Source: Actinomycetes bacterium (lineage in GTDB: Bacteria > Actinomycetota > Acidimicrobiia > Acidimicrobiales > RAAP-2). From it: DNA of 32,430 nt. The position numbers were made by a program, and so were the translations under genes. Of the stretch, positions 587 through 30,938 are shown one piece after another. Position 1 is the stretch's first letter. The number at the start of each line of letters is the position of its first letter. The stretch is taken from the NCBI GenBank assembly GCA_021837305.1, contig JAKBGV010000010.1, positions 1 through 32,430 on the forward strand, written 5' to 3'. The notes under the pieces are model-generated. The model did no database searches. It was not told the DNA's origin and saw nothing but the letters and a program-made list of their open reading frames with translations.

Positions 587-1489
587 TCAGTGAAACGGTG
601 GTGGCAGGACGGCGATGATGGCGTCCGCGATGGCCTCATAGCCGGCGGCGTTGGGGTGAATGTTGGGCCCGTACGGGTGGGCCGCGCACATCCACGTGAG
701 ATGACAGACGGTCGCCACATTCGTTGGCACTCGTTTGCCCGACCGGTAGGTTGTCGCGGTCTGGTGCAGGTGGAAGACACCCGCTACGTTGGCCATCGGC
801 ATGCCCTGTGACTGATAGATCGTTGCGAGTGTTTGGTCGAGCTGGCTGATGGCCTGGAGACTTGCGCGGGCGTGGATGCGACCGGTGCTGCCGTTGGCCT
901 CCTGAGCGAGGTACGGGTCGGCGAAACTGAGTCCCACGAATGTCACGTTCGGCCCAGCCGCGGCCTTCAGGACCGTCAGGATGCTGGTGAGCTGCGGTGC
1001 CATCTGGCCGATGCTTTGCTGGACGCACGTGGGGTCGACAACGCGGGTGCGCAGGCACGGCACGACCGAGTTGAAGCCGAGGTCGATCGTGACTAAACCG
1101 GTTTGATCATGGTGTGCGTTCAAAAAGGTGATCGCGTCGGCCAACTGCGAGTCGCCAGAGTGGTAACAACCGTCCTGGCCATTGACCATCGTGGCTACCG
1201 ATTCGCCCGGGCAGCCGAGTTCGGTGAGGGTGAGCGACACGCCGTGGCTCGCCTCGTATGAGATCAAGTCGTTGGCGAAGCCGTGGTGGGTCCGGTAGCC
1301 GTTGGGGTGCAGGGGTGTGGGCTGAATGCCGACCGACACTGACGCGCCGATGTCGAGATAGAAACCGGTCGTGGTTGTGGCTGTGGCCGCACCCGCTGCG
1401 CTGCTAGCGACTCCCGCTCCGGCGAGCATCGTCAACGCGGCCGCGAACGCGGCAACACCACGCGTGAACACTCGTTGGAAACGCACCAC
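587..1489 (-). CDS. Secreted SGNH/GDSL-family hydrolase (paralogue 1)
   Basis: This is a 300-aa protein with an N-terminal Sec signal peptide (basic start, hydrophobic residues about 11-35, Ala-rich cleavage region), so it acts outside the membrane. SGNH blocks are recognisable: the nucleophile Ser50 in DIGASVSVG (GAS instead of GDS), Gly in LGCPGES, Asn140 in LGFNS, and His278 in GPNIHPNAAGY. The residue three before that His is Pro rather than the usual Asp, so the enzyme may use a Ser-His dyad as some actinobacterial esterases do. Six cysteines (93, 108, 145, 155, 262, 268) are shared with the paralogue at 6105-7004 and suggest three disulfides. GTG start 1489 is supported by AAGGAG five bases upstream. 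It lies 150 bp downstream of an acyltransferase-3 gene on the same strand. Substrate unknown; esterase or acyl transfer is inferred. Confidence 0.85.
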   Translation of the reverse strand: MVRFQRVFTRGVAAFAAALTMLAGAGVASSAAGAATATTTTGFYLDIGASVSVGIQPTPLHPNGYRTHHGFANDLISYEASHGVSLTLTELGCPGESVATMVNGQDGCYHSGDSQLADAITFLNAHHDQTGLVTIDLGFNSVVPCLRTRVVDPTCVQQSIGQMAPQLTSILTVLKAAAGPNVTFVGLSFADPYLAQEANGSTGRIHARASLQAISQLDQTLATIYQSQGMPMANVAGVFHLHQTATTYRSGKRVPTNVATVCHLTWMCAAHPYGPNIHPNAAGYEAIADAIIAVLPPPFH

Positions 1490-1512
1490 TCATACTCCTT
1501 GACGTTCGTTAC

Positions 1513-1549
1513 GGCGGAGAACCGTGTGATGCTCCGCCATAGATCACAC
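1513..1549. promoter_or_regulatory. Nested inverted repeats upstream of SGNH hydrolase 1 (candidate operator)
   Basis: Two overlapping symmetric elements lie 24-60 bp before the start codon. GTGTGAT (1524-1530) and ATCACAC (1543-1549) are perfect 7-bp arms 12 bp apart. GGCGGAG (1513-1519) and CTCCGCC (1532-1538) are perfect 7-bp arms with a 12-nt loop. The first resembles a CRP-type TGTGA/TCACA site but with much wider spacing. Symmetry is direct; an operator role is inferred. Confidence 0.4.
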
Positions 1550-1639
1550 TTTGACCCCATCTACGGTACGGCGAAATCCGAAAGAGAAAGGCGTGTGCCG
1601 CGAAGAAATGAATAAGAATTCAGGGGTTTGATGCCCGCA

Positions 1640-2875
1640 CTACGGTTCGACGACGTCCATCGGCCCGTCTGCGGCGTCGCCGTGTTCGACCACCGCCGGG
1701 AGTTGGCGGCGCGGCCACAGGCTGGCCCAGGTTGCCCGGCTGCGGCCCGTGACGCCCTTGGCGACCCAGGTCCTCGCCATGAGTGCGGTGAACACAAAGC
1801 CCACGCTATAGACGATAACCAGGGCGAGCGGAGCGGCGACTTGCCAAGGGATGTGGACCCCGCTCGCGCTACGAAGTCGCACCAGCGCGGGAATCCAGAC
1901 CATCTGCGAGAGGTAGACGCCGTAGGAGTTGTCCGAACCCGACTGGACCATCGCACGGATCCGCGCTCGACGCGCCGGGGCGGTCAGATAGACCCCGAGC
2001 AAGTAAACACAGAGGATGGCTCCGATGTTGTATGGGATGATCATGGGCGAGAAGACATAGGTGCTGGCGCGAACGTAGGTCGGCAGGAAGTGGGTTGCAC
2101 CGACGTAGGTAAGGATCTCAGCGAGGGCCATGGCGGCGAGCGTTCCCCAGAGGATCAGCGCCACGTGGTGCACGATCCACTGGTGGACCTCGTCGAGGTG
2201 GAGCGCCACGATGACACCGCCCACGATGTAGATGACGTAGGAGAAGATGAGGCGCGTCTGCAGGAGCCCCGACAGTGCGAGCACGGAGTGGTGCGAGCTC
2301 ACCCAGGCGCCGTAAGCGATCTGCCACAGGAATGCGCCCACGATCAGCCGTCCGTGCCAGTTCGGGTGGCGTCGGATGAATCGGAGCATGAGAGGGAAGA
2401 GAACGTAGAATTCGCCGATGACGAGCAGGTAGTAGAGGTGGTAGTACCCGGTCGCGGTGAGGTGGACTAGTACGCGAATGCCGCTCGAACTGAACACGCG
2501 CGACGTTTCCAAGGCGTAGTACGGGAACGTTGAGCGGGTGGCGAGCGATGTGTAGAGGAAGTAGAGCACCGTCCAGGTCAAATACGGTACGCCAACCGAC
2601 ATGAAGCGTCGTTTCGCGTAGGGCAGGATCGCGACCTTCGTAGTGCTGCGATAACTGTACGTGAGCATGCACGCCGAGACGAAGAGGAAGGCGTCCCGTG
2701 AGAATCGGGTCAACATGATAAGGCCGACGACCGTCGTGCTCGTCGCCAGTGGGGCGAAGAAAATGAGGGCGTGCGTGGAGATCACGGCCGCCTGCTTGAC
2801 CGGGCGCATGGCGTCGATGTGGTCTAGACGTCGACGGGTGCCCGAAGGGGGCGCCAAGGGTTCGGACGCACTCAT
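1640..2875 (-). CDS. Acyltransferase-3 (OafA/OatA-type) integral membrane acyltransferase
   Basis: This protein of about 411 aa has roughly ten hydrophobic helices and a cytoplasmic Arg/Pro-rich tail. The N-terminal region MRPVKQAAVISTHALIFFAP carries the early His typical of acyltransferase-3 proteins, and the late helix GVYLSQMVWIPAL fits the family. Members move acyl groups across or within the membrane and O-acylate glycans, peptidoglycan or lipids. The start is placed at ATG 2875, 28 bp after the acyl-AMP ligase stop; an in-frame GTG at 2944 would overlap the ligase end but has no clear ribosome site. The gene follows the aldehyde dehydrogenase and ligase on the same strand and precedes a secreted SGNH protein, so it likely receives the acyl group they prepare. 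No SGNH domain is fused to it, unlike OatA. Substrate and acceptor unknown. Confidence 0.85.
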   Translation of the reverse strand: MSASEPLAPPSGTRRRLDHIDAMRPVKQAAVISTHALIFFAPLATSTTVVGLIMLTRFSRDAFLFVSACMLTYSYRSTTKVAILPYAKRRFMSVGVPYLTWTVLYFLYTSLATRSTFPYYALETSRVFSSSGIRVLVHLTATGYYHLYYLLVIGEFYVLFPLMLRFIRRHPNWHGRLIVGAFLWQIAYGAWVSSHHSVLALSGLLQTRLIFSYVIYIVGGVIVALHLDEVHQWIVHHVALILWGTLAAMALAEILTYVGATHFLPTYVRASTYVFSPMIIPYNIGAILCVYLLGVYLTAPARRARIRAMVQSGSDNSYGVYLSQMVWIPALVRLRSASGVHIPWQVAAPLALVIVYSVGFVFTALMARTWVAKGVTGRSRATWASLWPRRQLPAVVEHGDAADGPMDVVEP

Positions 2876-2903
2876 CAGCGATCCATTGGCACCAGGTGCT
2901 TCA

Positions 2904-4415
2904 TTACCTGATGTCCTTCCTAATGATGACCTCGAGCGGCTCACTCGTCAGGCGATGCTTTTGGATCTTGCCCGTAGCGTGGGCTGGTAGCTGCGCCACC
3001 ACCGTGAAGGAGACGGGCCAGTGGGTCTTTGGAAACCCCGTGGTGACGACGTCGCGCAACAGGGATAGCACGAAATCGTGGTCGCAGTCATCGGCGAGTT
3101 CCACGTACGCCGTAGGCACCTCGCCGAAGACGTCGTCGGGAAGAGCGATGACCGCAACGCCCCGTACGGCCTCGACACCGAGGATTGCGTCCTCGAGTTC
3201 GCGCGGGAAGATCTTCTCGCCGCCTCGGTTGATCACGTCGTCGCTGCGTCCAACGAGGTAGAGGTAGCCGTCCTCATCGAGGTAACCGAGGTCGCCCGTG
3301 CGCAGCCATCCATCGACGCTGAATCGATCCTCGTAGCCGGCGCTTTCGTAGCGCGTGATCACCGATGGCCCGCGAATCTCGACGTGGCCGACATTTGTTG
3401 CCGACACCGTTGGGTCGGATTCGTCCTCTGGGAAAGGCGCGATGCGCAACTCCACACCGACGGGAACGCCAGCCGAGCCGGGCCTACGCTCACCGTCGAG
3501 TGGATTGGCGCTGATCTGGCTCGCGGCTTCGGTCATGCCGTAGGACTCAATCACGGGTATGCCTATCGTCGACTGGAAGTGCGCCAAGACCGCTGGTGAG
3601 AGCGGCGCGGACGCCGAGCGGACGAAGCGGATGCGCTGCGCGATGACCTCGGACTCGTGCAAGTTGGACAGCCGGGCGATGATCGCGGGCACCGCGTTGA
3701 TCCAGGTGACCTTGTACTGGTCGGCCAGCGCCCAGAAGTCGGTGCGATGGAACCGCTCGTCCAAGACCAGCGATGAACCGGCGACCAAGGACGCCAACAG
3801 TCCGACGACTTCCGCGTTGATGTGCCAGAGGGGGAGGGGATTGAGACCACGATCCGCCGGAGTGAGCTGATTGTGCGCCGCGATCAGCTCGGCCGTGTGG
3901 AGCAGTTGTGCGGCGGGAAGCGCCATGACTTTGGGCGTACCGGTCGTGCCTGAGGAGGCGAGGATCACACCGCCCGCATTGATCGGTGAACTACCGCTCG
4001 GCGGCCGAGCCAGTGGCTCTGTTCCCACATCGTGCCAATTCGCGATAACCGCTCCGGGACGTTCACGGTCACTGATGACGGTGTCGACACCGAGACGGTG
4101 AAGTCGAGCGTTGAGGGCTTCGACGTTGATCGGGCTCATGGTGGGATCAAGTGGGGCCACCCAGAGACCGCAGGCGATGATGGACAGGAATGCCCGTGCG
4201 AATTCCAGGGGGTCGCGAATCAGCAGTCCGACGCGGTCTCCGCTACGCAGATCGAGTTCTCGCAGCCGTTCGGACCACCAGTCCATGGCACGCGCGAGGT
4301 CCTCGAAGGAGACGACGTCGGTGGAGCGCAGCCGCAGCAGGTACGAAGTGGCCCCGAAGCGCTGGGATTGTCGAGCGATCAGAGCGCCGAGGGACCGTGG
4401 GTGTTCGTCGCTCAC
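2904..4415 (-). CDS. Acyl-CoA synthetase / AMP-dependent acid ligase (ANL superfamily)
   Basis: This 503-aa enzyme activates a carboxylic acid with ATP to acyl-AMP and, in most relatives, acyl-CoA. Core motifs appear in order: SSGTTGTPK (about 154-162), ESYGMTEAA, GWLRTGDLGYLDEDG, the hinge RSDDVINRGGEKIFPRELE, and C-terminal ATGKIQKHRL with the catalytic Lys. The length is normal for medium/long-chain or aryl acid ligases. I place the start at GTG 4415, because GAGGG lies five bases upstream; a start at 4457 would add 14 residues without a ribosome site. It lies 95 bp after an aldehyde dehydrogenase that could supply the acid and just before an acyltransferase-3 that could use the product. 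Acid substrate not predictable by eye. Confidence 0.9.
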   Translation of the reverse strand: MSDEHPRSLGALIARQSQRFGATSYLLRLRSTDVVSFEDLARAMDWWSERLRELDLRSGDRVGLLIRDPLEFARAFLSIIACGLWVAPLDPTMSPINVEALNARLHRLGVDTVISDRERPGAVIANWHDVGTEPLARPPSGSSPINAGGVILASSGTTGTPKVMALPAAQLLHTAELIAAHNQLTPADRGLNPLPLWHINAEVVGLLASLVAGSSLVLDERFHRTDFWALADQYKVTWINAVPAIIARLSNLHESEVIAQRIRFVRSASAPLSPAVLAHFQSTIGIPVIESYGMTEAASQISANPLDGERRPGSAGVPVGVELRIAPFPEDESDPTVSATNVGHVEIRGPSVITRYESAGYEDRFSVDGWLRTGDLGYLDEDGYLYLVGRSDDVINRGGEKIFPRELEDAILGVEAVRGVAVIALPDDVFGEVPTAYVELADDCDHDFVLSLLRDVVTTGFPKTHWPVSFTVVAQLPAHATGKIQKHRLTSEPLEVIIRKDIR

Positions 4416-4450
4416 GAGAGCCCTCGGATGCCGTGCGGCCACTGCACGCG

Positions 4451-4490
4451 GGCGCATCGCAGGGCGCGGGTGCCTTGGCGCATCGCAGGA
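4451..4490. repeat. 13-bp direct repeat in the ALDH-ligase spacer
   Basis: GGCGCATCGCAGG occurs at 4451-4463 and again at 4478-4490, 27 bp apart, within the 95-bp gap between the aldehyde dehydrogenase stop and the ligase start. It may be a tandem-duplication trace or a regulatory element; nothing distinguishes these. Confidence 0.35.
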
Positions 4491-4510
4491 TTCACTGGGT
4501 GGTGGCGCAT

Positions 4511-6010
4511 TCAGCGGGTCTGGGTCCAGACGGCCTTGGTTTCCAGGAACTCATCGATGTGTTCGACGCCGCCTTCGCGGCCGTAGCCGCTCATGCGGTA
4601 GCCACCGAAGGGGACGGCGGGGTCCATCTGGCCGTAACAGTTGACCCAGACCGTTCCGGTGCGCAGGGCGCTCACGGTCCGAGTCGCTTTGGTGATGTCA
4701 TTCGTCCACACACCACCGCCCAGACCGAAGGGACTGGTATTGGCGAGTTTGATGACCGACTCGTAGTCATCGAAGGGCATGACCGAGACGACCGGTCCGA
4801 AAATCTCTTCTTTGGCGACGCGCATGTCATTGTTCACGTTGGTGAAGATCGTGGGCGAAACGAAGTAACCCCTGGCGTAGTCACCCTCGGTGAGTCTCGT
4901 ACCACCGGTGTAGACGGCGGCCCCCTCGGCGCGACCGACGTCGAAGTAACTGGTCACGCGATCGAGCTGGGTCTGTGAGACGACCGGCCCGAGTTGCGTG
5001 GTGTCGTCGAGCCCGTTGCCCACGGTAAGTGAGTTCGTGTAGGCGGACATGGCTTGGACGAAGTCGTCGTAGATGCCGCGTTCGACGAAGAGCCGGGTGC
5101 CAGCGCTGCACACTTGTCCGGAGTTGGTGAAGGCCGCCATCGCCGCGCCGGGGACTGCGAGGTCGAGGTCGGCGTCGTTGAAGACGATATTGGGCGATTT
5201 GCCGCCGAGCTCCAATGTCACACGCTTCAACGTGGTGGCGGCAGCGCGCACGATGGCTTGGCCCGTCGCAGTCGAGCCCGTGAAGGCGATCTTGTCGACG
5301 CCGGGGTGGACGCTCAACGCGGCGCCGGCGGTCTCGCCGTAACCGGTCACGACGTTGACGACACCGTTAGGCAGGCCGGCCTCAAGGAGGAGTTCGCTCA
5401 GCCAGAGTGCGCTCAGTGACGCTTCCTCCGCGGGTTTGAGCACGACAGTGCAGCCCGCGGCGAGTGCGGCGCCGACCTTCCAGATGAAGGCGATGTGGGG
5501 ATTGTTCCACGGGATGATGGCACCGACTACGCCCACAGGTTCGCGCAACGTGTGGGTATGGAAGTCACCCGGGATTGAGTTAGCGATCGTCTCACCGCGC
5601 AGCGCCGTCGTAAGGCCGGCGTAGAAGCGGGCCATGCCGACCGCTCGGCGTAGGTTGCCACGCATGCGCTGGATCGGAGCGCCCATGTCCAGAGTGTCCA
5701 ACACCGCCAGGTCGTCGTGTCGCGTCTCAACTAGGTCGGCGAACCGCAACATAATTCGTTGGCGGTCGTAAGGCTTCATCCTCGACCACGGGCCGTCGTC
5801 GAAGGCGTGACGTGCGGCTGTGACTGCCCGATCAACGTCGGGCGCGTCGCCGGCCGGCAGTCGGGCGAGTAGTTCTCCCGTCGCTGGATTCAACGTGTCG
5901 AACGTCTCGCCCGAAAGAGCATGGACGAATGCGCCGTCGATCAGCATCAACGGAAGACCACCGGAGACGAATCGTTCAATCGCCGAGGGGACGAAGACTT
6001 CCTGTGGCAT
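4511..6010 (-). CDS. NAD(P)-dependent aldehyde dehydrogenase
   Basis: This 499-aa protein is a full-length aldehyde dehydrogenase oxidising an aldehyde to the acid. Active-site elements are intact: Asn169 in IPWNNP, cofactor-binding Lys192 in LKPAEE, FTGSTATG (about 243-250), general-base Glu267 in LELGGKS and nucleophile Cys301 in GQVCSAG. The conserved end FGGYRMSGYGREGG is present. The start is set at ATG 6010, preceded by AAGGGG with six bases of spacing; an in-frame GTG at 6025 would place that ribosome site inside the gene. It is the first gene of a minus-strand run leading to an acyl-AMP ligase and an acyltransferase-3, suggesting that its acid product is activated next. Specific substrate unknown. 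Confidence 0.92.
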   Translation of the reverse strand: MPQEVFVPSAIERFVSGGLPLMLIDGAFVHALSGETFDTLNPATGELLARLPAGDAPDVDRAVTAARHAFDDGPWSRMKPYDRQRIMLRFADLVETRHDDLAVLDTLDMGAPIQRMRGNLRRAVGMARFYAGLTTALRGETIANSIPGDFHTHTLREPVGVVGAIIPWNNPHIAFIWKVGAALAAGCTVVLKPAEEASLSALWLSELLLEAGLPNGVVNVVTGYGETAGAALSVHPGVDKIAFTGSTATGQAIVRAAATTLKRVTLELGGKSPNIVFNDADLDLAVPGAAMAAFTNSGQVCSAGTRLFVERGIYDDFVQAMSAYTNSLTVGNGLDDTTQLGPVVSQTQLDRVTSYFDVGRAEGAAVYTGGTRLTEGDYARGYFVSPTIFTNVNNDMRVAKEEIFGPVVSVMPFDDYESVIKLANTSPFGLGGGVWTNDITKATRTVSALRTGTVWVNCYGQMDPAVPFGGYRMSGYGREGGVEHIDEFLETKAVWTQTR

Positions 6011-6104
6011 GAATGGCCCCTTCACTCAGTGTTTGCGGACACCGCGTCGGCGCACGGCCCCGGTCTTGGCAACCGGTGTCGACGCCACGGTGTTGCACCC
6101 AAAG

Positions 6105-7004
6105 TTAGCCTCGCCACGCCGGCGGCAATGTCGCTTCGATAGCCGAGGCGATTACCCGGTACCCAGCGTTGTTCGGGTGATCGTCGGGTCCGAACGGGTA
6201 GCCAGTGCAGTCCCAGGTCAGTTGGCATGCCCTCGCCACGTTCAACGGCACTACCCCGACGCCCTTCAGCATGGTCGGCGTACGGTTGTCGAGTTGGAAG
6301 GCACCCGCCACGTTGGCGACGGGGATCTTAGACGCGTGGTACAGGCGGATGAGGTCGGTGTCGAGCGCAGACATCGCTTGGAGGGTCTGCGTCGCTGCCG
6401 TCACGTGGACGCCACCCTGGAGGTACTTCGAGAGGAAGGGATCGCCGTAGTCGATGCCTATGAAGTGGACATTTGGTCCCGCAGCTGATTTCAGCGCGTT
6501 CAGCACCGGTGTGAGGTCACGGGTTACGTTGGCGAGGCCCATGGCAACACACGTCGGGTCGACGACGGCGGCGGCGAGACAGGGTCGCACGTCATTGAAG
6601 CCCAGGTCGATGGTGACCAGTCCGACGGCGTCGTGATTCGCTTGGAGGAACTGCTCGGCGGTCAGCAGTTGGCGCTGGGGCAACGTATAGCAGTGGTCGC
6701 CACTGAGAAGCATCGACTCGACGGTCTCGCCGGGGCAGCCGATCTGTCGTAACCGCAGGTCGACGCCTCTGGTCGCCAAGTAGTTGACGACGTCGTTTGC
6801 GTACGCTGTGTCGGTGCGATGGCTGTTGTGTTTCGGTATCCCGGTTGGTTGGTAACCCAAGGACGACGACGCGCCGATGTCAAGATAGAAACCCGTGGCC
6901 ACGGTGGCGCTTGATCCGGTGAAAGGGTGGACGAGTAGGTAGGCACCGATGACGGCGGTGGCGACTGCGACAACCGCGAGCCGCCGGACAAGCTGCACGA
7001 ACAC
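6105..7004 (-). CDS. Secreted SGNH/GDSL-family hydrolase (paralogue 2)
   Basis: This 299-aa protein is a paralogue of the one at 587-1489, sharing its length, signal/anchor region (residues 6-26), the DIGASSSLG nucleophile block (Ser46), Gly in IGCPGET, LGFND (Asn137) and the HPNNAGY block (His276), plus the six cysteines. Here the Asn block is canonical GxND, and acidic residues Asp274 and Asp275 sit beside the catalytic His, so this copy looks more complete. The start is GTG 7004, preceded by GGGGG with eight bases of spacing. A longer reading to 7289 would add 95 residues without family resemblance, before the signal sequence, and is rejected. It lies 94 bp upstream of the aldehyde dehydrogenase on the same strand, so the paralogues bracket the acylation genes. 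Confidence 0.85.
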   Translation of the reverse strand: MFVQLVRRLAVVAVATAVIGAYLLVHPFTGSSATVATGFYLDIGASSSLGYQPTGIPKHNSHRTDTAYANDVVNYLATRGVDLRLRQIGCPGETVESMLLSGDHCYTLPQRQLLTAEQFLQANHDAVGLVTIDLGFNDVRPCLAAAVVDPTCVAMGLANVTRDLTPVLNALKSAAGPNVHFIGIDYGDPFLSKYLQGGVHVTAATQTLQAMSALDTDLIRLYHASKIPVANVAGAFQLDNRTPTMLKGVGVVPLNVARACQLTWDCTGYPFGPDDHPNNAGYRVIASAIEATLPPAWRG

Positions 7005-7253
7005 GTGAGATACCCCCAGGTCGATAGAGCGGTGCCAACAGTCTGCCACAGACGGTCGCCGTGAGAGCGTCAGCAGAGTGCCACAGTCGCCAGCCAGCGA
7101 AGCGTCACGCTGCGTGAACTGTCTAGTGAGCTCTGTTTTCTGAGTCATCACACGGCCGATGTTCACGGCCGCGGTAGTGCTCAGGCGGTGAAGCAACCGG
7201 CGCAGGTCGTCACCTATGGTTTCGCTCCGCTGCGAGAATCGCGAGTGAGTACG

Positions 7254-8126
7254 ATGGCCGAGATTACGGGGAGGTGGCGTACGCGACACGAATGGTCCAC
7301 TCGCACGAGACGAGCGGTGAGGGGACCCACGTCGGCGGTCGTGGCACGACGACCGTGGTCGCTACGACGGATCCCGATTCGCTACGTCGGGGTCCTCGTA
7401 GGTTCACTCATGGCGTGGCAATTGGTGGCAATCAGTCACGTCTTCCCGAGTTTTGCGTTCCCGTCGCCTTCGAGCACCTGGGACTCATTCCTCCAGACGC
7501 TGCACCACGGGTATCAGGGGTCGACATTGCTCGCCGACCTGATGGTGAGCCTAGAACGGGTGTCAATCGCGTACGTGGGGGCAGTGGTGATCGGCGTGGT
7601 GCTGGGTTTCTCGATGACCCAGAGCCGCGCGGTGTTCACGGTGGTCGATCCGTTCTTGCAGTTTCTGCGACCGATTCCGCCGCTCGCCTACATTCCGCTC
7701 TTCGTCGTGTGGTTCGGTATTGGCGAAATGCCCAAGGTGCTCTTGATCCTTGTCTCGACTGTTCCCGTGATCGTCATCAATACGATCAACGGCGTGCGAT
7801 CGACGCCCAACTACCGGATCGAGTTGGCCCGAAATCTCGGTGCCAATCGACGTCAAATCCTCGGCCGGGTCGTCTTCCCATCGGCCTTGCCGGATATCTT
7901 CACCGGTATGAAGGTGGCTATCGGTGTGGCGTGGAGCACACTCGTCGCGGCCGAGCTCATCGCGGCGAGCCGCGGACTCGGCTGGTTAATCGAACAGGCG
8001 GGGACCGAACTGCAGACGGGCATCGTGGTGACGGGGATCATCTTGATCGGCATCATGGGCTACCTCATGGATCTGGCTATCCGCGTGCTCGAACGCGTGG
8101 TCATCCCCTGGCGCGACTTCGTGTGA
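7254..8126 (+). CDS. NitT/TauT-family ABC transporter permease (SsuC/TauC-like)
   Basis: This is the membrane subunit of an importer for nitrate, sulfonate, taurine, thiamine precursor or a similar solute. It has an Arg-rich cytoplasmic N-terminus, about six transmembrane helices and the EAA coupling loop around ELARNLGANRRQILGRV, which contacts the ATPase. Signature stretches such as LRPIPPLAYIPLFVVWFG fit this family. The start is uncertain: ATG 7254 gives 290 aa, near family size, while GTG 7245 and GTG 7188 are in frame; none has a strong ribosome site. The binding protein and ATPase follow on the same strand. Gene order permease-binding protein-ATPase does not reveal the substrate. Confidence 0.88.
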   Translation: MAEITGRWRTRHEWSTRTRRAVRGPTSAVVARRPWSLRRIPIRYVGVLVGSLMAWQLVAISHVFPSFAFPSPSSTWDSFLQTLHHGYQGSTLLADLMVSLERVSIAYVGAVVIGVVLGFSMTQSRAVFTVVDPFLQFLRPIPPLAYIPLFVVWFGIGEMPKVLLILVSTVPVIVINTINGVRSTPNYRIELARNLGANRRQILGRVVFPSALPDIFTGMKVAIGVAWSTLVAAELIAASRGLGWLIEQAGTELQTGIVVTGIILIGIMGYLMDLAIRVLERVVIPWRDFV

Positions 8127-8179
8127 GGTCCATTTGAGCGCGCTGGCGGACGCGCCGTGAAAATTCGGTGGATTTCTTG

Positions 8180-8198
8180 ACTGTAAGTGCCCCACAGT
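8180..8198. promoter_or_regulatory. Short inverted repeat in the permease-binding protein gap
   Basis: ACTGT (8180-8184) and ACAGT (8194-8198) are symmetric arms in the 188-bp gap before the binding-protein gene, partly overlapping TTGACT (8177-8182), which resembles a -35 box. No well-spaced -10 was found for that box. This could be an operator or a small RNA hairpin that helps the binding protein to be made in excess of the permease. Weak evidence. Confidence 0.25.
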
Positions 8199-8314
8199 TC
8201 GGGTGTTGGCGGTAAGAATGTAAAAATGCGGCGGTGCCTGTCAGCGCGTTCACGCGAATCCGGCGGATTTGGGTGGACGAGGTAGCCGCGCGAGGGAGAT
8301 TCGAGGGAGGCACG

Positions 8315-9358
8315 ATGGGAACGATTCGTCGACTGACTGGTGTGGCGTCGTCACTGGCGCTCGCCGCTGCCGTGGCGACCCCACTGGCCAGTGGAGTTCT
8401 CACGGCGACGCCGAGTGCGGCGTCGGTGAACGCTGGATCGATCGCGATCGGCTACGAGAACAACGGAGCGGACCCGTCGATCATCTCGGTGGCCAACAAG
8501 TACTTCCAACGGGAGATGGGCCGTGACGTGCGTCTCAAGTTGTTCACGTCGGGACCGGCGGCACTCACGTCCCTCGCGTCGGGTCAGCTCCCGTTCATGT
8601 GTGGGCTGGGGATGCCGCCGGTCATCGCGGCCGTCGCCCAGGGCGTGCCGCTCCAGGTGGTATTTAACCAGGAGCGGTACACGAAGGACGCGGGACTCGT
8701 GGTGAAGAAGTCGAGCGGCATCAAGTCAGTGGCGGGTCTCGCCGGTAAGAGTGTCGGGCTGGTGATCGGATCGCAGTCGTCCTTCGAACTCGCCACGTAC
8801 GCTCACCAGGCGGGGCTAAAGCTCTCGTCGGTACGTCTGGTGAACCTCACGCCGCCGGAGTTGCAGAGCGCATGGTCGACCGGGCGTATTGAGGCCGCAG
8901 TCGTCTGGGACCCTGTCTATGACTTCCTCGTCACTCACGGCGGACGGGTGCTCGTGGACGACTCAAAGCTTCCGGTGACCGCGACGTCCTTTAACATTTG
9001 TGTGGCGAATAAGTCGTTCGCGTCAAAGCACCCGGCCGTCGCCAAGGCGTTCGTGAAGGCGCTGGGTGACGGTGTCAATTACCTGCAGACTCACCGGACG
9101 GCGGCAATGCGAGTCATGGCGAAGGCCGCGGGGATCTCCGTGGCGACCGCCAAACTCGAGATCGCCGGGTACCAGATCTATTCCGTGGCCGACCAGGCGA
9201 CCGCGGCGGTATTGGGCACCTCGACAACGACCAGCGCGAGGTCGGGCACGGCACAGTCGCTACTCAACAACTGGAAGGCGTTGTACAACGCGGGGACAAT
9301 CACGGTCAAGCCACCCAAATCGGCCGGCGCGTTCGTGAACCCGAGTTACGCGAAGTAG
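8315..9358 (+). CDS. NMT1/SsuA-like periplasmic-type substrate-binding protein
   Basis: This 347-aa secreted protein is the solute receptor of the adjacent importer. A signal peptide (about residues 1-33) precedes the two-lobed binding fold: SIAIGYENNGADPSI at the start, GPAALTSLASGQLPF, SVAGLAGKSVGLVIGSQS, and LQSAWSTGRIEAAVVWDPV are typical of the NMT1/SsuA/TauA group. The start is ATG 8315, chosen because GAGGGAGG lies four bases upstream; an upstream ATG at 8234 would place charged residues before the signal sequence. There is no lipobox cysteine, so membrane anchoring as a lipoprotein is not evident, which is unusual for a Gram-positive binding protein. The ligand is unknown. Confidence 0.88.
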   Translation: MGTIRRLTGVASSLALAAAVATPLASGVLTATPSAASVNAGSIAIGYENNGADPSIISVANKYFQREMGRDVRLKLFTSGPAALTSLASGQLPFMCGLGMPPVIAAVAQGVPLQVVFNQERYTKDAGLVVKKSSGIKSVAGLAGKSVGLVIGSQSSFELATYAHQAGLKLSSVRLVNLTPPELQSAWSTGRIEAAVVWDPVYDFLVTHGGRVLVDDSKLPVTATSFNICVANKSFASKHPAVAKAFVKALGDGVNYLQTHRTAAMRVMAKAAGISVATAKLEIAGYQIYSVADQATAAVLGTSTTTSARSGTAQSLLNNWKALYNAGTITVKPPKSAGAFVNPSYAK

Positions 9359-9368
9359 GCGAGTTCGT

Positions 9369-10127
9369 TTGGTACTACGCGTAGACCAGGTTTCTAAGAC
9401 CTTTGACGGTGACGACGCGAGACGTTCGCCGCACCAGGTGTTCGATGAGTTCTCGCTCGATATCGCCGAGGGAGAGTTCGTGGCCGTGCTCGGTCCTTCG
9501 GGGTGCGGTAAAACGACGCTGCTGCGCATGATCGCGGGTTTCGATCGCCCTGACACTGGGCGGGTCATTTTCGACGGGAGCGATGTGACGGGTCCAGCGA
9601 GTGATCGAGTCGTGGTGTTTCAGCAGCCCGGGTTGTTCCCCTGGATGGACGTACGTCACAACGTGGCCTTTGGACTGCGGCTGCGCCGTCGTCGCATCGA
9701 TTGGCAACCCGTGGACGAGATCCTGGCGACCGTGGGTTTGAGCGAGTTCGCGGGTCACGCGCCCTATGAGCTCTCCGGAGGGATGCAACAGCGCGTGGCG
9801 TTGGCCCGTTCATTGGTCATGCGCCCGAAGATGCTCCTCATGGACGAGCCCTTCGCCGCACTCGACGCGCACCTACGCCACGCGATGCAGGTGTTCCTGC
9901 GCGAGTTGTGGTTGGAGATCCGCACCACAGTGCTCTTCATCACCCACGACGTCGAGGAAGCGATCGTGCTCGCCGAACGCGTCGTCGTGCTCGGCTCCAA
10001 CCCCGGCCGGATCCTCGGCGAGCTCGACGCACGCGACGTGCACCCGAGCAGTGCTGACCTGTTGGACAACGCCGATTACCGACGGCTCCGCCACCGAGCC
10101 ATTGAGCTCCTGGGTGAAATCCCCTAG
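9369..10127 (+). CDS. NitT/TauT-family ABC transporter ATP-binding protein (SsuB/TauB-like)
   Basis: This 252-aa ATPase powers the importer encoded just upstream. Walker A GPSGCGKTT, the Q-loop FQQPGLFPWMDV, signature LSGGMQQRVALARSL, Walker B LLMDEPFAALDA and the switch FITHDVEEA are all intact. The PGLFPW pattern after the Q-loop and the length fit nitrate/sulfonate/taurine-type ATPases. The start is TTG 9369, 10 bp after the binding-protein stop, so the two are probably cotranscribed. It is convergent with the TDT transporter at 10228. Confidence 0.92.
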   Translation: MVLRVDQVSKTFDGDDARRSPHQVFDEFSLDIAEGEFVAVLGPSGCGKTTLLRMIAGFDRPDTGRVIFDGSDVTGPASDRVVVFQQPGLFPWMDVRHNVAFGLRLRRRRIDWQPVDEILATVGLSEFAGHAPYELSGGMQQRVALARSLVMRPKMLLMDEPFAALDAHLRHAMQVFLRELWLEIRTTVLFITHDVEEAIVLAERVVVLGSNPGRILGELDARDVHPSSADLLDNADYRRLRHRAIELLGEIP

Positions 10128-10227: not shown

Positions 10228-11352
10228 CTAGAAGAGTGCGAGGACAACCGCGAGCCCGGCCCCGAGCCAACGCAACGCGCTCAGGTCCCAACTTTCGGCG
10301 AGCACGATGGTTTCGGTCGTGTAGGCCCCGAGCGGGAAGGTGAATGCCCACCAGCCGATACCGAAGGGAAGTGAACCGTTGCGCAGGTAGCGCACGAGCA
10401 GGATGGTCGCAGCGATCAGCCACCAGGCGCCGAATCCCCACAGGACGGTGGCGAAGAGGTTGACGAAGACCTCGATACTGGGACCGACTGGCCCGTAGAG
10501 GGCACTTCCCGCAGTGGCCATCTTCACCAACGTGACTGTGCCGACGCCGATCGGTCCGAGTCCGATCCAAAGCGACGGGGCTAGTGCGGCGTGGGGCAAC
10601 GGATGCACGACGAGCCGCTGGAACAACATGGCGAGGATCAGCACGTAGAGCGCGAATCCCACGCCCCAGAAGGCGTAGGACAGGAAGAGCAGCGCACGGG
10701 CGGTGGCTGGCGATGACCCGGGTATCGACGGTAGGAAGACGAGCGGGACGACGATGTTGACCACTGGCGGGATGAACCAGCTCCCGTTGACGGCTTCGGT
10801 GTTCGCCGACGGATGTACGAAGAGCAGGTAGGCGAAGGCGACGCTGACGGCGAGCGCCGTGGGCACGCCGACCCAATCGAGCGCCGTGATGACCGTTCGA
10901 ACGGTGGTGGGCGCGAACCACGTTGGACCAACGGCGGCCATCGTGGCGGCGATGACCAGGATTCCACCGGGGATGGTGCCGTAGAGACCGCCCTGGACGG
11001 GATCGCGCAGACTCGCCGCTGCGGCGTCGAAGTGCCAGACGATTCGGGCGAGGTAGGCAGTGAGCAGACCGATCGTGAGGATAATTGAAACGATGGTCAT
11101 CACCTGGGCCACGACACGCGTCGAAGCGGCGAGTTCCGACAATCCCCCGGGGTTCTGCATCGCGACGATGGCGATGACCGCGGTGCCCATCACCGCGCCG
11201 TACCAACCCGGGTGGAAGTCACGCAGGGCGCTCGTCGCGGGGTCTACCTCGCGTGCGTGGTCGCTGAACGCGAGACGTTGCCGGTGACATCTCGTCGGTG
11301 ACGTCTCGTCGTGACAATTGCTCAGCCGTAGACATGGTGGCTGCCACCTCAC
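10228..11352 (-). CDS. TDT/SLAC1-family membrane transporter (TehA/malate or sulfite-permease type)
   Basis: This protein of up to 374 aa has about ten transmembrane helices of the TDT (tellurite resistance/dicarboxylate, SLAC1-like) family. The first-helix motif FHPGWYGAVMGTAV and the mid-protein FWGVGFALYVLILAMLFQRL are characteristic. Relatives carry C4-dicarboxylates or sulfite, or act as anion channels; the substrate is not readable. The N-terminus is uncertain: the only in-frame start is GTG 11352, giving an odd Cys-rich leader before DPATSALRDFHPGW. An ATG at 11335, with AGGTGG eight bases upstream, is in another frame and stops after 38 codons, so a small frameshift near 11270-11330 is possible. 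It is divergent from an ArsR gene, which may regulate it. Confidence 0.82.
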   Translation of the reverse strand: MRWQPPCLRLSNCHDETSPTRCHRQRLAFSDHAREVDPATSALRDFHPGWYGAVMGTAVIAIVAMQNPGGLSELAASTRVVAQVMTIVSIILTIGLLTAYLARIVWHFDAAAASLRDPVQGGLYGTIPGGILVIAATMAAVGPTWFAPTTVRTVITALDWVGVPTALAVSVAFAYLLFVHPSANTEAVNGSWFIPPVVNIVVPLVFLPSIPGSSPATARALLFLSYAFWGVGFALYVLILAMLFQRLVVHPLPHAALAPSLWIGLGPIGVGTVTLVKMATAGSALYGPVGPSIEVFVNLFATVLWGFGAWWLIAATILLVRYLRNGSLPFGIGWWAFTFPLGAYTTETIVLAESWDLSALRWLGAGLAVVLALF

Positions 11353-24226: not shown

Positions 24227-24930
24227 GCGCGCGCCACGAGCTTCTCGGCAAAGAACTGGTACGTGCGCGATGTGGCGTCGGTAGCCGCGGCTTCGTTGAA
24301 GACCGCCGGTCGTCCGTCACAGTTGAACCCGTGCTCCGCGTCGGCGTACCGGACGATCTCGGCGCCGTAGGGCGACGTGCTCGTTGCGACGCGAAGTGCC
24401 TCCACCTGCTCGACGGGGATTCCCTTGTCGAGGTCGCCGTAGAAGCCCATCCACGCGCACGTCAGGTCACCGGCGAGTTCGAGTAGCGAGGGTAGGCCGA
24501 ACCGGCCCGTCTCGACGCCGCCGCCGTAGAACGTTGCGGCGGCGCCGGCCACCCCCAGTGTCGCTGCGTAGAACGTCACCGAGCCACCCATGCAGTAACC
24601 AACGACACCGGTGGAGCCGGCCTCGTAGCCGACGTCGGCGAGGAAGCGGCTCGCCGCGAGCAGGTCGTCGGTCAACCCGTCGCGCGTGAGCGACCCGACG
24701 GCCGCCATGGCGTCAGGGAACTGGTCGTAGAGGATCTCCGGCGAACCGATCCGGTGGAACAGCTCGGGAGCCACGGCATAGTAGCCCTGGTCGGCGAATC
24801 GTTGGGTCACCGACCGGATGTGGTCATTAACCCCGAAGGCCTCCTGAAGCACGATCACGGCACGCGGTGCCGTGGCCTCGCCGGAGACCTGAATCGGGGT
24901 GCCTGACGCCAACACGTGACGAGTGGTCAT
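24223..24930 (-). CDS. Dienelactone hydrolase family protein
   Basis: This 235-aa alpha/beta hydrolase has the dienelactone hydrolase triad: Cys113 in GYCMGGS, Asp168 in GDLDKGIP and His200 in EHGFNC, with the supporting Glu30 in LQEAFGVNDHIR. A Cys nucleophile and this Glu are diagnostic. Family members open lactones from chlorocatechol breakdown, but many actinobacterial copies have unknown ester substrates. Its ATG overlaps the stop of the DsbA-fold gene (ATGA, 24930-24927), so it is the last member of a coupled minus-strand series. Confidence 0.9.
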   Translation of the reverse strand: MTTRHVLASGTPIQVSGEATAPRAVIVLQEAFGVNDHIRSVTQRFADQGYYAVAPELFHRIGSPEILYDQFPDAMAAVGSLTRDGLTDDLLAASRFLADVGYEAGSTGVVGYCMGGSVTFYAATLGVAGAAATFYGGGVETGRFGLPSLLELAGDLTCAWMGFYGDLDKGIPVEQVEALRVATSTSPYGAEIVRYADAEHGFNCDGRPAVFNEAAATDATSRTYQFFAEKLVARA

Positions 24931-25529
24931 GAGAAGTCTGGTCCCTTCGTTCGACTGCGCTTAAGTTCGAAGAACCCCGGTGTCGCGGCGACGGCGACAA
25001 CACCGTCGTAGAGACGCCCGGCGTCTTCGCCCTTGGGAGCGGGCGTGACGACGGGCCCGAAGAAGGCGACGTCACCGACGTGGATGACTGGCGTGCCGAC
25101 GTCGAAACCGACGGGGTCCATGCCGCGATGGTGACTGGCGCGAAGCAACTCGTCGTACGTGGTTGCCGAGCCCGCCTCAGCGAGATCGGCTTCGAGACCG
25201 ATCTCGGCCAGGGACTCGGCGATGATCGTGGACACGTCGTCGAGACCACCGATGTGCCGTCGATGGCCCATCGCGCTGTAGAGCGGCTCGACCACGGCGT
25301 TGCCGTGACGTTGTTCGGCGGCGATCAGCACGCGCACCGGTGCCCACGCGTGGATAAGGAATTCCCGGTACTCATCACTCAGATCGCGCCCCTCGTTGAG
25401 TACGGCGAGGCTCATCACGTGGAAGCGAACCTCGAGGTCTCGTACGGACGCCGCCTCGAGCAGCCAGCGCGAGGTCATCCACGCCCAGGGGCACATGGGA
25501 TCGACCCAGAGGTTTACGGACTGGGTCAT
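24927..25529 (-). CDS. DsbA-fold, Rv2466c-like mycothiol-linked reductase with CPWA active site
   Basis: This 200-aa cytoplasmic protein (no signal peptide) has a thioredoxin core with a helical insert and strong likeness to mycobacterial Rv2466c: DPMCPWAWMTSRWLLE, FHVMSLAVLNEGRDLS, GTPVIHVGDVAFFGPV and FFELKRSRTKGP. Rv2466c is a mycothiol-dependent reductase with CPWC; here the second Cys is Ala16, leaving a single Cys13, which fits a monothiol mechanism using mycothiol. It overlaps both neighbours through ATGA junctions (25529-25526 and 24930-24927). It implies a mycothiol-making host. Confidence 0.9.
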   Translation of the reverse strand: MTQSVNLWVDPMCPWAWMTSRWLLEAASVRDLEVRFHVMSLAVLNEGRDLSDEYREFLIHAWAPVRVLIAAEQRHGNAVVEPLYSAMGHRRHIGGLDDVSTIIAESLAEIGLEADLAEAGSATTYDELLRASHHRGMDPVGFDVGTPVIHVGDVAFFGPVVTPAPKGEDAGRLYDGVVAVAATPGFFELKRSRTKGPDFS

Positions 25530-29040: not shown

Positions 29041-30252
29041 ATGGCGATGTGGCGCACGGTTCGACTCCAGATCGCGAAGGCCGCCGTGCGCTCGACCAAC
29101 TGGATTTCGTTACGAACGGGACGGGGCAGTGGGACGGTCATCGGTGGGATGGTAGGACTCACGATCGCGCCGGGGCTGCTCGAGGCGTTGGCCGCGAACC
29201 GCCGCATCATCGTGGTCTCTGGGACCAACGGCAAGACGACGACGACCGCACTCGCCGTTGCGGGTTGGGGCGACGACGTCGCGTCCAACGATACCGGTGC
29301 CAATATGCCCGCCGGGCTCACCGCGGCGCTCGTGCGCAATCGATCCCCGCGGGCCGTTCTCGAGAGTGACGAGGCGTGGCTGGGCGCGAACGTCGAGGCG
29401 ACGCACCCCGCGGTCATCGTCATTCTCAATCTCTCCCGTGATCAGCTCGATCGGGCAAGCGAGGTGCGTCAGATCGCTGATCGGTGGCGCGCCGTCTTTG
29501 CGACGGCGCAGTCTCGCGGGGCGGTGATCGTGGCGAACGCGATGGATCCCTTGGTTGTCTATGCAGCTTTTGAGGCGGGCAATGTCCGTTGGTGCGCGCC
29601 GCCGACCTCCTGGACCGCGGACACCATGTCATGTCCCCGCTGCACGGCGCCGCTCCATCGCTCCGATGAACGGTGGTGGTGTTCGTGCGGACTCGTCCAA
29701 CCAAGTGCCAGCTCGTACCTCGATGGCACCGCCGCGGTCGTCGGCGATGAGCGCTTCGAGATCCCCGTGACGCTGCCGGGTTCGTTCAACCAAGGCAACG
29801 CGCTCATGGCACTCACCGCTCTGGTGGAGGTCGGCGTTGACGTGCGCCGTGCGGCGCTGCGGATGGCCGCCGTGGACGAGGTGGCCGGGCGCTACGGTGT
29901 TCGACGAATCGGCGGTCAGGTCGTGCGACTACTGCTCGCGAAGAATCCCGCCGGCTTCGCCGCGATGCTCGAGGATGTGGGCGGTGAGGGAGACTTGTGG
30001 GTCTCCATTAACGCAAGGGTGGCCGACGGTCATGACCCCTCGTGGCTGTATGACGTGCCCTTCGAGGTGTTACGCGGCCGACGGGTCCGCTGCCTCGGTG
30101 ATCGACGACTCGATTTGGCGACGCGACTGTGGTACGCCGGGGTGGACGCCTACGTTGACGAAGGTCCACCAGTTATCGAGGATCGGGTCATCGACGTACT
30201 GGCGAACTACACCGCGTTCAGTGACCTGCTCAGAGATTCACAGCCATGTTGA
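29041..30252 (+). CDS. murT: Lipid II isoglutaminyl synthase, MurT subunit
   Basis: This 403-aa Mur-ligase-like subunit works with GatD to amidate the alpha-carboxyl of D-Glu in lipid II, giving D-isoglutamine in peptidoglycan. ATP-binding VVSGTNGKTTTTALAV (58-73) and LESDEAWLG are present, and a zinc ribbon, Cys198-x2-Cys201 with Cys214-x-Cys216 (CPRC, CSCG), interrupts the middle domain as in known MurT. The C-terminal DUF1727-type domain follows (VAGRYGVRRIGGQVVRLLLAKNPAGF in parts). The start is ATG 29041; no ribosome site, but a -10-like TAGCGT lies six bases upstream. gatD overlaps its 3' end by seven bases. Confidence 0.95.
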   Translation: MAMWRTVRLQIAKAAVRSTNWISLRTGRGSGTVIGGMVGLTIAPGLLEALAANRRIIVVSGTNGKTTTTALAVAGWGDDVASNDTGANMPAGLTAALVRNRSPRAVLESDEAWLGANVEATHPAVIVILNLSRDQLDRASEVRQIADRWRAVFATAQSRGAVIVANAMDPLVVYAAFEAGNVRWCAPPTSWTADTMSCPRCTAPLHRSDERWWCSCGLVQPSASSYLDGTAAVVGDERFEIPVTLPGSFNQGNALMALTALVEVGVDVRRAALRMAAVDEVAGRYGVRRIGGQVVRLLLAKNPAGFAAMLEDVGGEGDLWVSINARVADGHDPSWLYDVPFEVLRGRRVRCLGDRRLDLATRLWYAGVDAYVDEGPPVIEDRVIDVLANYTAFSDLLRDSQPC

Positions 30253-30938
30253 GGATCGTCCAGGTCTATCCAGAGCTGTTAGGCACCTACGGCGACGGTG
30301 GGAACGGATTCGTACTGAGAGAGCGGGCCCGGCGGCGGGGTATCGACGTCGAGCTGATCCGAGCCGGCATGGATCAACTGCTGCCCGGGGGCGACATCTA
30401 TTTGTTGGGTGGAGGCGAAGATGGTCCCCAACGCCTGGCGGTGGTGCTGCTCGAAGAGGCCGGGTTCTCACGTCGCGTGGCCGAGGGCGCCATGGTGTTC
30501 GCCGTGTGCGCCGGACTGCAGATGCTTGGGTCGCGGTTCAGCGTGCAGGGTGACGACGAGTACGTTGGGCTCGGTCTCGTCGACGCAGTAACGACGCGGG
30601 CGTCCACACGAGCCGTCGGCGACTTGGTGACCACCGTCGAAGGCACCACGATGGTGGGATTCGAGAACCATGGCGGGGAGACAACGATTGGCGCCAGCGT
30701 CGAGCCGTTCGCGACCGTGGAGCGGGGACACGGCAACGACGGACGATTGGACGGATTCCGTGCCGGACGGATCTGGGCGACCTACGCGCACGGCCCGGTC
30801 CTTGCCCTGAATCCTTGGCTCGCCGACGCGGTGCTCGCCGAAGCGCTCGAAATGAGTGAACTGGCGCCGTTGCCGTCCGTGGCCGACCAACTCTACGAGT
30901 CGCGTTGCCGTGTTCTTACGAGGCGGGCGGCCGATTGA
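30246..30938 (+). CDS. gatD: Lipid II isoglutaminyl synthase, GatD glutamine amidotransferase subunit
   Basis: This 230-aa class-I-like amidotransferase supplies ammonia from glutamine to MurT. The nucleophile Cys88 in FAVCAGLQMLG and the catalytic His182 in TYAHGPVLALNP are present, with GNGFVLRERARRRG near the N-terminus as in other GatD proteins. It overlaps murT by seven bases, ensuring coupled translation of the heterodimer. Its 3' end overlaps the convergent PlsC-type gene by 23 bases, so the coding strands share sequence there. Confidence 0.95.
   Translation: MLRIVQVYPELLGTYGDGGNGFVLRERARRRGIDVELIRAGMDQLLPGGDIYLLGGGEDGPQRLAVVLLEEAGFSRRVAEGAMVFAVCAGLQMLGSRFSVQGDDEYVGLGLVDAVTTRASTRAVGDLVTTVEGTTMVGFENHGGETTIGASVEPFATVERGHGNDGRLDGFRAGRIWATYAHGPVLALNPWLADAVLAEALEMSELAPLPSVADQLYESRCRVLTRRAAD

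Follow-up and report, generated by a model that had tools for sequence, protein, structure and literature searches.

A conserved actinobacterial gene set that may esterify a small sulfonated acid outside the cytoplasmic membrane

The window considered here (the whole stretch of DNA analyzed, 32,430 nucleotides, contig JAKBGV010000010.1) comes from a draft genome (1.66 Mb, 73% complete) of an Actinomycetes bacterium of the order Acidimicrobiales. Five minus-strand genes near its start encode two SGNH proteins, SGNH-A (SGNH1) and SGNH-B (SGNH2), an acyltransferase-3 membrane protein (AT3, PF01757), an AMP-forming acyl ligase and an aldehyde dehydrogenase. The balance of evidence tips modestly towards this locus being a variant of an actinobacterial system by which a small sulfonated acid, 3-sulfolactate being the likeliest, is esterified outside the cytoplasmic membrane. 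Conserved gene linkage, co-occurrence across genomes, intact motifs and modeled folds were observed; the reactions, the acid and the acceptor are inferred from them. The AT3 systems known so far draw on central metabolism for the groups that they move, such as acetyl and succinyl. If the proposal is correct, a gene set making its own sulfonated acid would represent a new class of surface chemistry, and would give the ComA family a new role beyond coenzyme M and spores.

Conservation and forms of the gene set

To follow the gene set through related bacteria, 100 genomes (61 of the same genus and 39 from other families of the order) were searched for AT3, SGNH and PF02679 (ComA). AT3 was detected in 36 and SGNH in 43, nearly all of them in the same genus, and ComA in 34. 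Within the genus, ComA and AT3 are both present in 31 genomes and both absent from 26, with AT3 only in 3 and ComA only in 1. AT3 and SGNH are likewise both present in 31 and both absent from 24, with 3 discordant genomes in each direction. Fisher p-values are <1e-9 for both pairs, computed over related genomes that are not independent and drafts that are incomplete. In the other families of the order, ComA occurs in only 2 of the 39 genomes (G081 and G090), and the same two carry AT3. A histidine phosphatase, ComA, the ligase, AT3 and a GDSL protein are co-directional in G090, with a VOC protein between ComA and the ligase (L240).

All-against-all comparison of the neighborhoods of 40 loci yielded a recurring core made up of a ComA-family protein, a VOC protein of 137 residues, the ligase and AT3. 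The histidine phosphatase adjoins this core. An AT3 alignment search of species genomes gave 76 named loci, whose members were detected with profiles built for the purpose. The ligase is present in 68, ComA in 57, VOC in 56, the histidine phosphatase in 54, SGNH in 32, the aldehyde dehydrogenase in 8 and a complete importer in 4; many loci without members are cut by contig ends, and some are distant AT3 relatives. The usual set is histidine phosphatase, ComA, VOC, AMP ligase and AT3, often with SGNH proteins. The order varies, and includes phosphatase-ComA-VOC-ligase-AT3, ligase-AT3-ComA-VOC, ComA-VOC divergent from ligase-AT3, and others. Since linkage is preserved through this shuffling, it is a strong sign of shared function.

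These loci lie mostly in metagenome-assembled genomes (MAGs) titled Acidimicrobiaceae (bog, palsa) or Actinomycetes bins; several bins, to judge from isolate names, come from acid mine drainage. A few are labelled Streptosporangiaceae, Nocardiopsis, Nocardiopsaceae, Dactylosporangium, Frankia alni or Chloroflexi, and Pfam confirmed the operon members in the Nocardiopsaceae, Nocardiopsis and Streptosporangiaceae MAGs checked. Six loci from records titled Saccharibacteria or Acidobacteria (L185, L197, L199, L212, L241, L248) carry the actinobacterial operon, and their MAG labels are probably wrong.

Some variants were also seen. The ComA-AT3 core also has another conserved setting (L073, L076, L078-L086 and others), in which a CitMHS/ArsB-like transporter lies upstream of it, a ClC channel, GNAT proteins and a DUF3048 protein follow downstream, and the SGNH genes are located in other parts of the genome. 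In L228, L234, L235, L244 and L245, two tandem AT3 genes end the operon and are followed by an antisense SGNH gene. Genome G012, which has a full operon, carries a second ComA beside an otherwise unlinked SGNH gene (L093:6202-8102).

The window form of the gene set comprises the following genes.

587–1489, minus strand: SGNH-B, a secreted SGNH protein with a signal peptide, six conserved cysteines and the motif GPNIHPN
1640–2875, minus strand: AT3 membrane protein (PF01757) with an R24-x10-H35 motif; frame open to 2944, ATG at 2875 likelier
2904–4415, minus strand: AMP-forming acyl ligase (AMP-binding Pfam), kin of oxalate-CoA ligases; frame open to 4457, GTG at 4415 likelier, with a purine-rich stretch upstream
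4511–6010, minus strand: NAD-type aldehyde dehydrogenase (Aldedh Pfam), accessory; frame open to 6025, ATG at 6010 likelier, with GAAGGGG upstream
6105–7004, minus strand: SGNH-A, membrane-anchored or secreted, first gene of the operon, motif GPDDHPN; GTG start at 7004, frame open to 7289
7188–8126, plus strand: TauC/SsuC-like ABC permease, divergent from SGNH-A; start probably at 7254
8234–9358, plus strand: TauA/SsuA-like substrate-binding protein; start probably at 8315
9369–10127, plus strand: TauB/SsuB-like ABC ATPase

With the likelier starts, the gaps between the five minus-strand genes, from SGNH-A to SGNH-B, are about 94, 95, 28 and 150 bases, lengths compatible with a single transcript; consensus scans revealed no convincing internal promoter or terminator. 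The Pfam scores of AT3 (81.6 bits), AMP-binding (152.6) and Aldedh (585.3) are well above cut-offs. The original prediction placed these five genes on one strand, in this order, at 587–7004, and they are indeed there. Its boundaries left out the divergent importer at 7188–10127, which is conserved beside the window form: importer, SGNH-A, aldehyde dehydrogenase, ligase, AT3 and SGNH-B, without a local ComA, recur with the same divergent arrangement in L181, L182, L183 and L193. Because other genomes keep this gene order, the five-gene arrangement is not due to chance, and the absence of conservation that would have counted against the prediction was not observed.

Elsewhere in the window, a SLAC1/Tdt family transporter (10228–11352; tellurite/dicarboxylate or possibly sulfite export) adjoins the importer; it was rejected as a member of the system, as it is not retained in annotated related loci. 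A MurT-like ligase and a CobB/CobQ-like glutaminase (GatD-like) at 29041–30938 form a peptidoglycan amidation pair, and an Rv2466c-like mycothiol-dependent nitroreductase (24927–25529) hints at mycothiol use.

Supply and activation of the acid

The main recurring acyl source is probably ComA, with VOC and the histidine phosphatase, rather than the aldehyde dehydrogenase. The ComA of a relative aligns over 246 residues to the B. subtilis phosphosulfolactate synthase 1u83 (E 1.6e-82). ComB (PF04029) occurs in only 4 of the 34 ComA-bearing relatives and shows no association with ComA; another phosphatase is therefore needed, a role left for the histidine phosphatase. Coenzyme M biosynthesis was set aside as an explanation, with ComB mostly absent and ComA linked to acyl activation.

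ComA is also found beyond these operons. In a genome of another family (G176), it directly adjoins an ATP sulfurylase, suggesting a local supply of sulfite (L156:7432-10139). In another actinobacterial family (G218), a polysaccharide cluster with a nucleotide-sugar dehydratase, a Wzy-like ligase and a LytR_C protein contains a histidine phosphatase gene and a ComA gene whose ends overlap, without an AT3 of the present type (L161:4346-12146). Plasmid-borne ComA matches also turned up in the searches.

The PF02679 match of the window genome is on another contig (G000:C24:148-864, E 2.3e-81), where ComA-VOC is accompanied by an antisense histidine phosphatase (L111). The sister genome of L181 carries the same cassette, also on a separate contig, with 89% nucleotide identity to L111. 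The aldehyde dehydrogenase is best seen as accessory, because loci such as L196 and L215 carry it together with ComA. Thus, of the acyl supply that the original prediction assigned to the two upstream enzymes, the ligase holds up, being beside AT3 in 68 of the 76 loci, while the aldehyde dehydrogenase, present in 8, does not hold up as the main source given the recurrence of ComA. The importer is, from its sequence, sulfonate-type at most. No SsuD or TauD scored over cut-off in the seven genomes searched, all incomplete drafts, so that sulfur scavenging is less likely as the role of the importer.

The ligase carries PF00501 and PF13193. Its catalytic lysine (K497) and the motifs YGMTE and GR.DD.INR are conserved in 65 relatives. 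The closest solved relatives are three oxalate-CoA ligases, followed by succinylbenzoate and fatty acyl ligases and malonyl-CoA synthetases. The window ligase shares with the three oxalate-CoA ligases a stretch that includes R-S-x-S, and the residues R277, R280, S281 and S283 of this stretch are invariant in the 65 ligases of the group. Oxalate-CoA ligases act on a tiny dianionic acid. This kinship and the common invariant arginines and serines suggest that the substrate is a small acid bearing a second negative charge, like sulfolactate and sulfoacetate. We consider it probable, as had been tentatively proposed, that the acid is not acetate.

The acyltransferase and the SGNH proteins

The AT3 match to Pfam (81.6 bits) compares with a curated cut-off of 31. 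The R/K-X10-H motif of the first helix is present (R24 and H35) and invariant across 17 relatives. Foldseek alone returned no significant match for the AT3 model, and searches of the PDB with the SGNH and AT3 sequences matched nothing useful. When aligned with VIA-align, the AT3 model scored Z 15-16 against HGSNAT and 11.9 against GWT1, with unrelated rows below 5. These matches agree with the TmAT superfamily as set out in PMC12423673, and the predicted model has the fold of that superfamily.

SGNH-A and SGNH-B are 47% identical. S50, G92, N140 and H278 (SGNH blocks I, II, III and V) and six cysteines are invariant in 12 sequences, in line with the original description of two paralogues sharing six cysteines. 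The usual DxxH of block V is absent, the sequence being GPNIHP in SGNH-B and GPDDHP in SGNH-A, with no aspartate three residues before the histidine. The Lipase_GDSL_2 matches (28.3 and 24.9 bits, E-values 1e-5 to 1e-6) fall below the curated cut-off of 32.9. The SGNH-B model (pLDDT 81) has an SGNH fold and scores Z of about 20-22 against GDSL esterases; the pair thus appears divergent in sequence from the GDSL model, yet the predicted fold agrees.

A tree of 80 SGNH sequences splits SGNH-A (GPDDHP) from SGNH-B (GPN[ILMFV]HP), which rules out a recent tandem duplication; the bracketing of the operon in the window is therefore an old arrangement. In each of the 18 loci where AT3 was in view, SGNH-A opens the operon and is co-directional with it; the same holds for L115, where the contig breaks off within the ligase gene. 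SGNH-B lies downstream of AT3, usually antisense, or is unlinked. From sequence, they are two old paralogue families with fixed places. A divergent downstream copy with HDDHAN in L075 groups with SGNH-A. The idea of a split system, with AT3 and SGNH as separate genes, is supported: catalytic residues are intact in both, they sit together in many genomes, and they co-occur as described above.

A substantial minority possibility is that AT3 acylates on its own and that the SGNH proteins are esterases trimming or recycling the group, which would be compatible with a sulfonated acyl group. Standalone AT3 proteins are thought to be self-sufficient (PMC9558356), the modeled SGNH fold is closest to esterases, and many loci have no SGNH beside AT3, with SGNH-B mostly antisense or unlinked. 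However, SGNH-A is always at the head of the same operon and co-directional, fused AT3-SGNH enzymes depend on their SGNH domain for transfer (PMC9558356), and the predicted fold cannot tell a transferase from an esterase or other hydrolase. Whether standalone AT3 proteins require a separate SGNH partner is a question raised in the same AT3 review (PMC9558356), and the conserved, linked SGNH partner genes described here bear on it.

Proposed function and comparison with known systems

In the scheme we favor, esterification with a sulfonated acid, ComA would join sulfite and phosphoenolpyruvate into phosphosulfolactate, and the histidine phosphatase would strip the phosphate, replacing ComB. In the window genome, the importer and the aldehyde dehydrogenase could provide a second supply of sulfonated acid. 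The AMP ligase would then convert the acid to an acyl-CoA, from which AT3 would take the acyl group and hand it across the membrane. SGNH-A and SGNH-B may take the acyl group on their serine and transfer it to an acceptor, which we infer to be a surface polymer, or one of them may trim it. Whether this amounts to an undescribed envelope modification is, in our judgement, evenly poised: O-sulfolactylation or a close sulfonated ester, for which acidophilic and soil Actinomycetota would have a dedicated operon (phosphatase, ComA, VOC, ligase, AT3, SGNH) and which would give the surface a permanent negative charge that is ionized at low pH. Such a group could be an adaptation to acid, as a sulfonate would be charged at the pH of mine drainage or peat, where carboxylates lose charge.

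Several observations weigh against this proposal. The window itself contains no ComA, and ComA was undetected in two window-like genomes (G053 and G487) and in two with SGNH-ligase-AT3-SGNH (G488 and G490), all of them drafts. The ComA of the group, represented by a relative's protein, scores 239 bits, compared with the curated 280 of the archaeal equivalog TIGR03849, and the importer falls below the curated taurine/sulfonate cut-offs (SsuA 137 versus 163.5, TauC 220 versus 342). The co-occurrence test ignores shared ancestry. Three AT3 genomes are without a strong SGNH, so that SGNH may be dispensable, and the SGNH folds resemble ordinary esterases. The literature searched yielded no sulfolactyl surface ester. 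That search, whose coverage excluded most subscription papers and bioRxiv preprints, found no description of the present gene set and nothing relevant on ComA with an acyltransferase, on sulfolactyl or sulfoacetyl esters, or on sulfolactic acid in polysaccharide.

The acceptor could instead be a secreted small molecule or lipid, which we regard as rather unlikely. In its favor, the conserved set includes no glycosyltransferase or polymer export gene; the secreted SGNH partners, and the phosphatase-ComA pair in the polysaccharide cluster of L161, fit a surface glycan better, though these points are weak either way. Least probable, and in our view unlikely, is that the acid handled by the split AT3-SGNH system is small but ordinary (such as malonate, lactate, succinate or acetate) and that the ComA cassette is a separate sulfonate pathway, a neighbor by regulation only: acetyl and succinyl are groups that AT3 proteins are known to move (PMC9558356), the four genomes without detected ComA fit this view and a non-sulfonated acid could be the product of the aldehyde dehydrogenase, but the co-occurrence and linkage of ComA and AT3 persist in shuffled orders across families, and acetyl-CoA or succinyl-CoA would not call for the dedicated ligase that adjoins AT3 so regularly.

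The proposed sulfonate-esterifying system resembles several known ones in part. Like OafA/OafB and OatA, which are fused AT3-SGNH proteins, it combines an RX10H AT3 with an extracytoplasmic SGNH protein that has intact Ser, Gly, Asn and His. It differs in having two SGNH genes, its own ligase and a ComA-based acid supply; in the window, as in the inspected loci, AT3 and SGNH are encoded separately. By analogy, then, it would work like an AT3-SGNH acyltransferase, although it is not classed with OafA/OatA, which are single polypeptides. PatA/PatB and AlgI/AlgX similarly pair a membrane acyl carrier with a soluble SGNH partner from separate genes; their membrane part, however, is an MBOAT protein, whereas here it is AT3 with a predicted TmAT fold. 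To our knowledge, these two systems have no dedicated acid supply.

The AT3 succinyltransferases ExoH and MdoC/OpgC put an anionic acyl group on a glycan, as the present set may do. They use succinyl-CoA from central metabolism, in contrast to the dedicated ligase and linked ComA of the present set. SucT of mycobacteria is another AT3 succinyltransferase. The ComA of the set belongs to the same protein family as that of coenzyme M biosynthesis and aligns over nearly its full length with B. subtilis 1u83. However, its linked genes are those of a histidine phosphatase, VOC, ligase and AT3, not those of ComB, ComC and ComDE, and we propose that its product is carried outward as an acyl group. The R-F-x-R-S-x-S-A stretch is common to the ligase and its best solved relatives, the oxalate-CoA ligases of the AAE3/Pcs60 type, and some other aligned positions differ (e.g. 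TEA-A-S-Q here, TEA-T-H-L or TEA-S-H-Q there). The transfer machinery is thus of a known kind, while its linkage to a sulfonate supply appears to be new.

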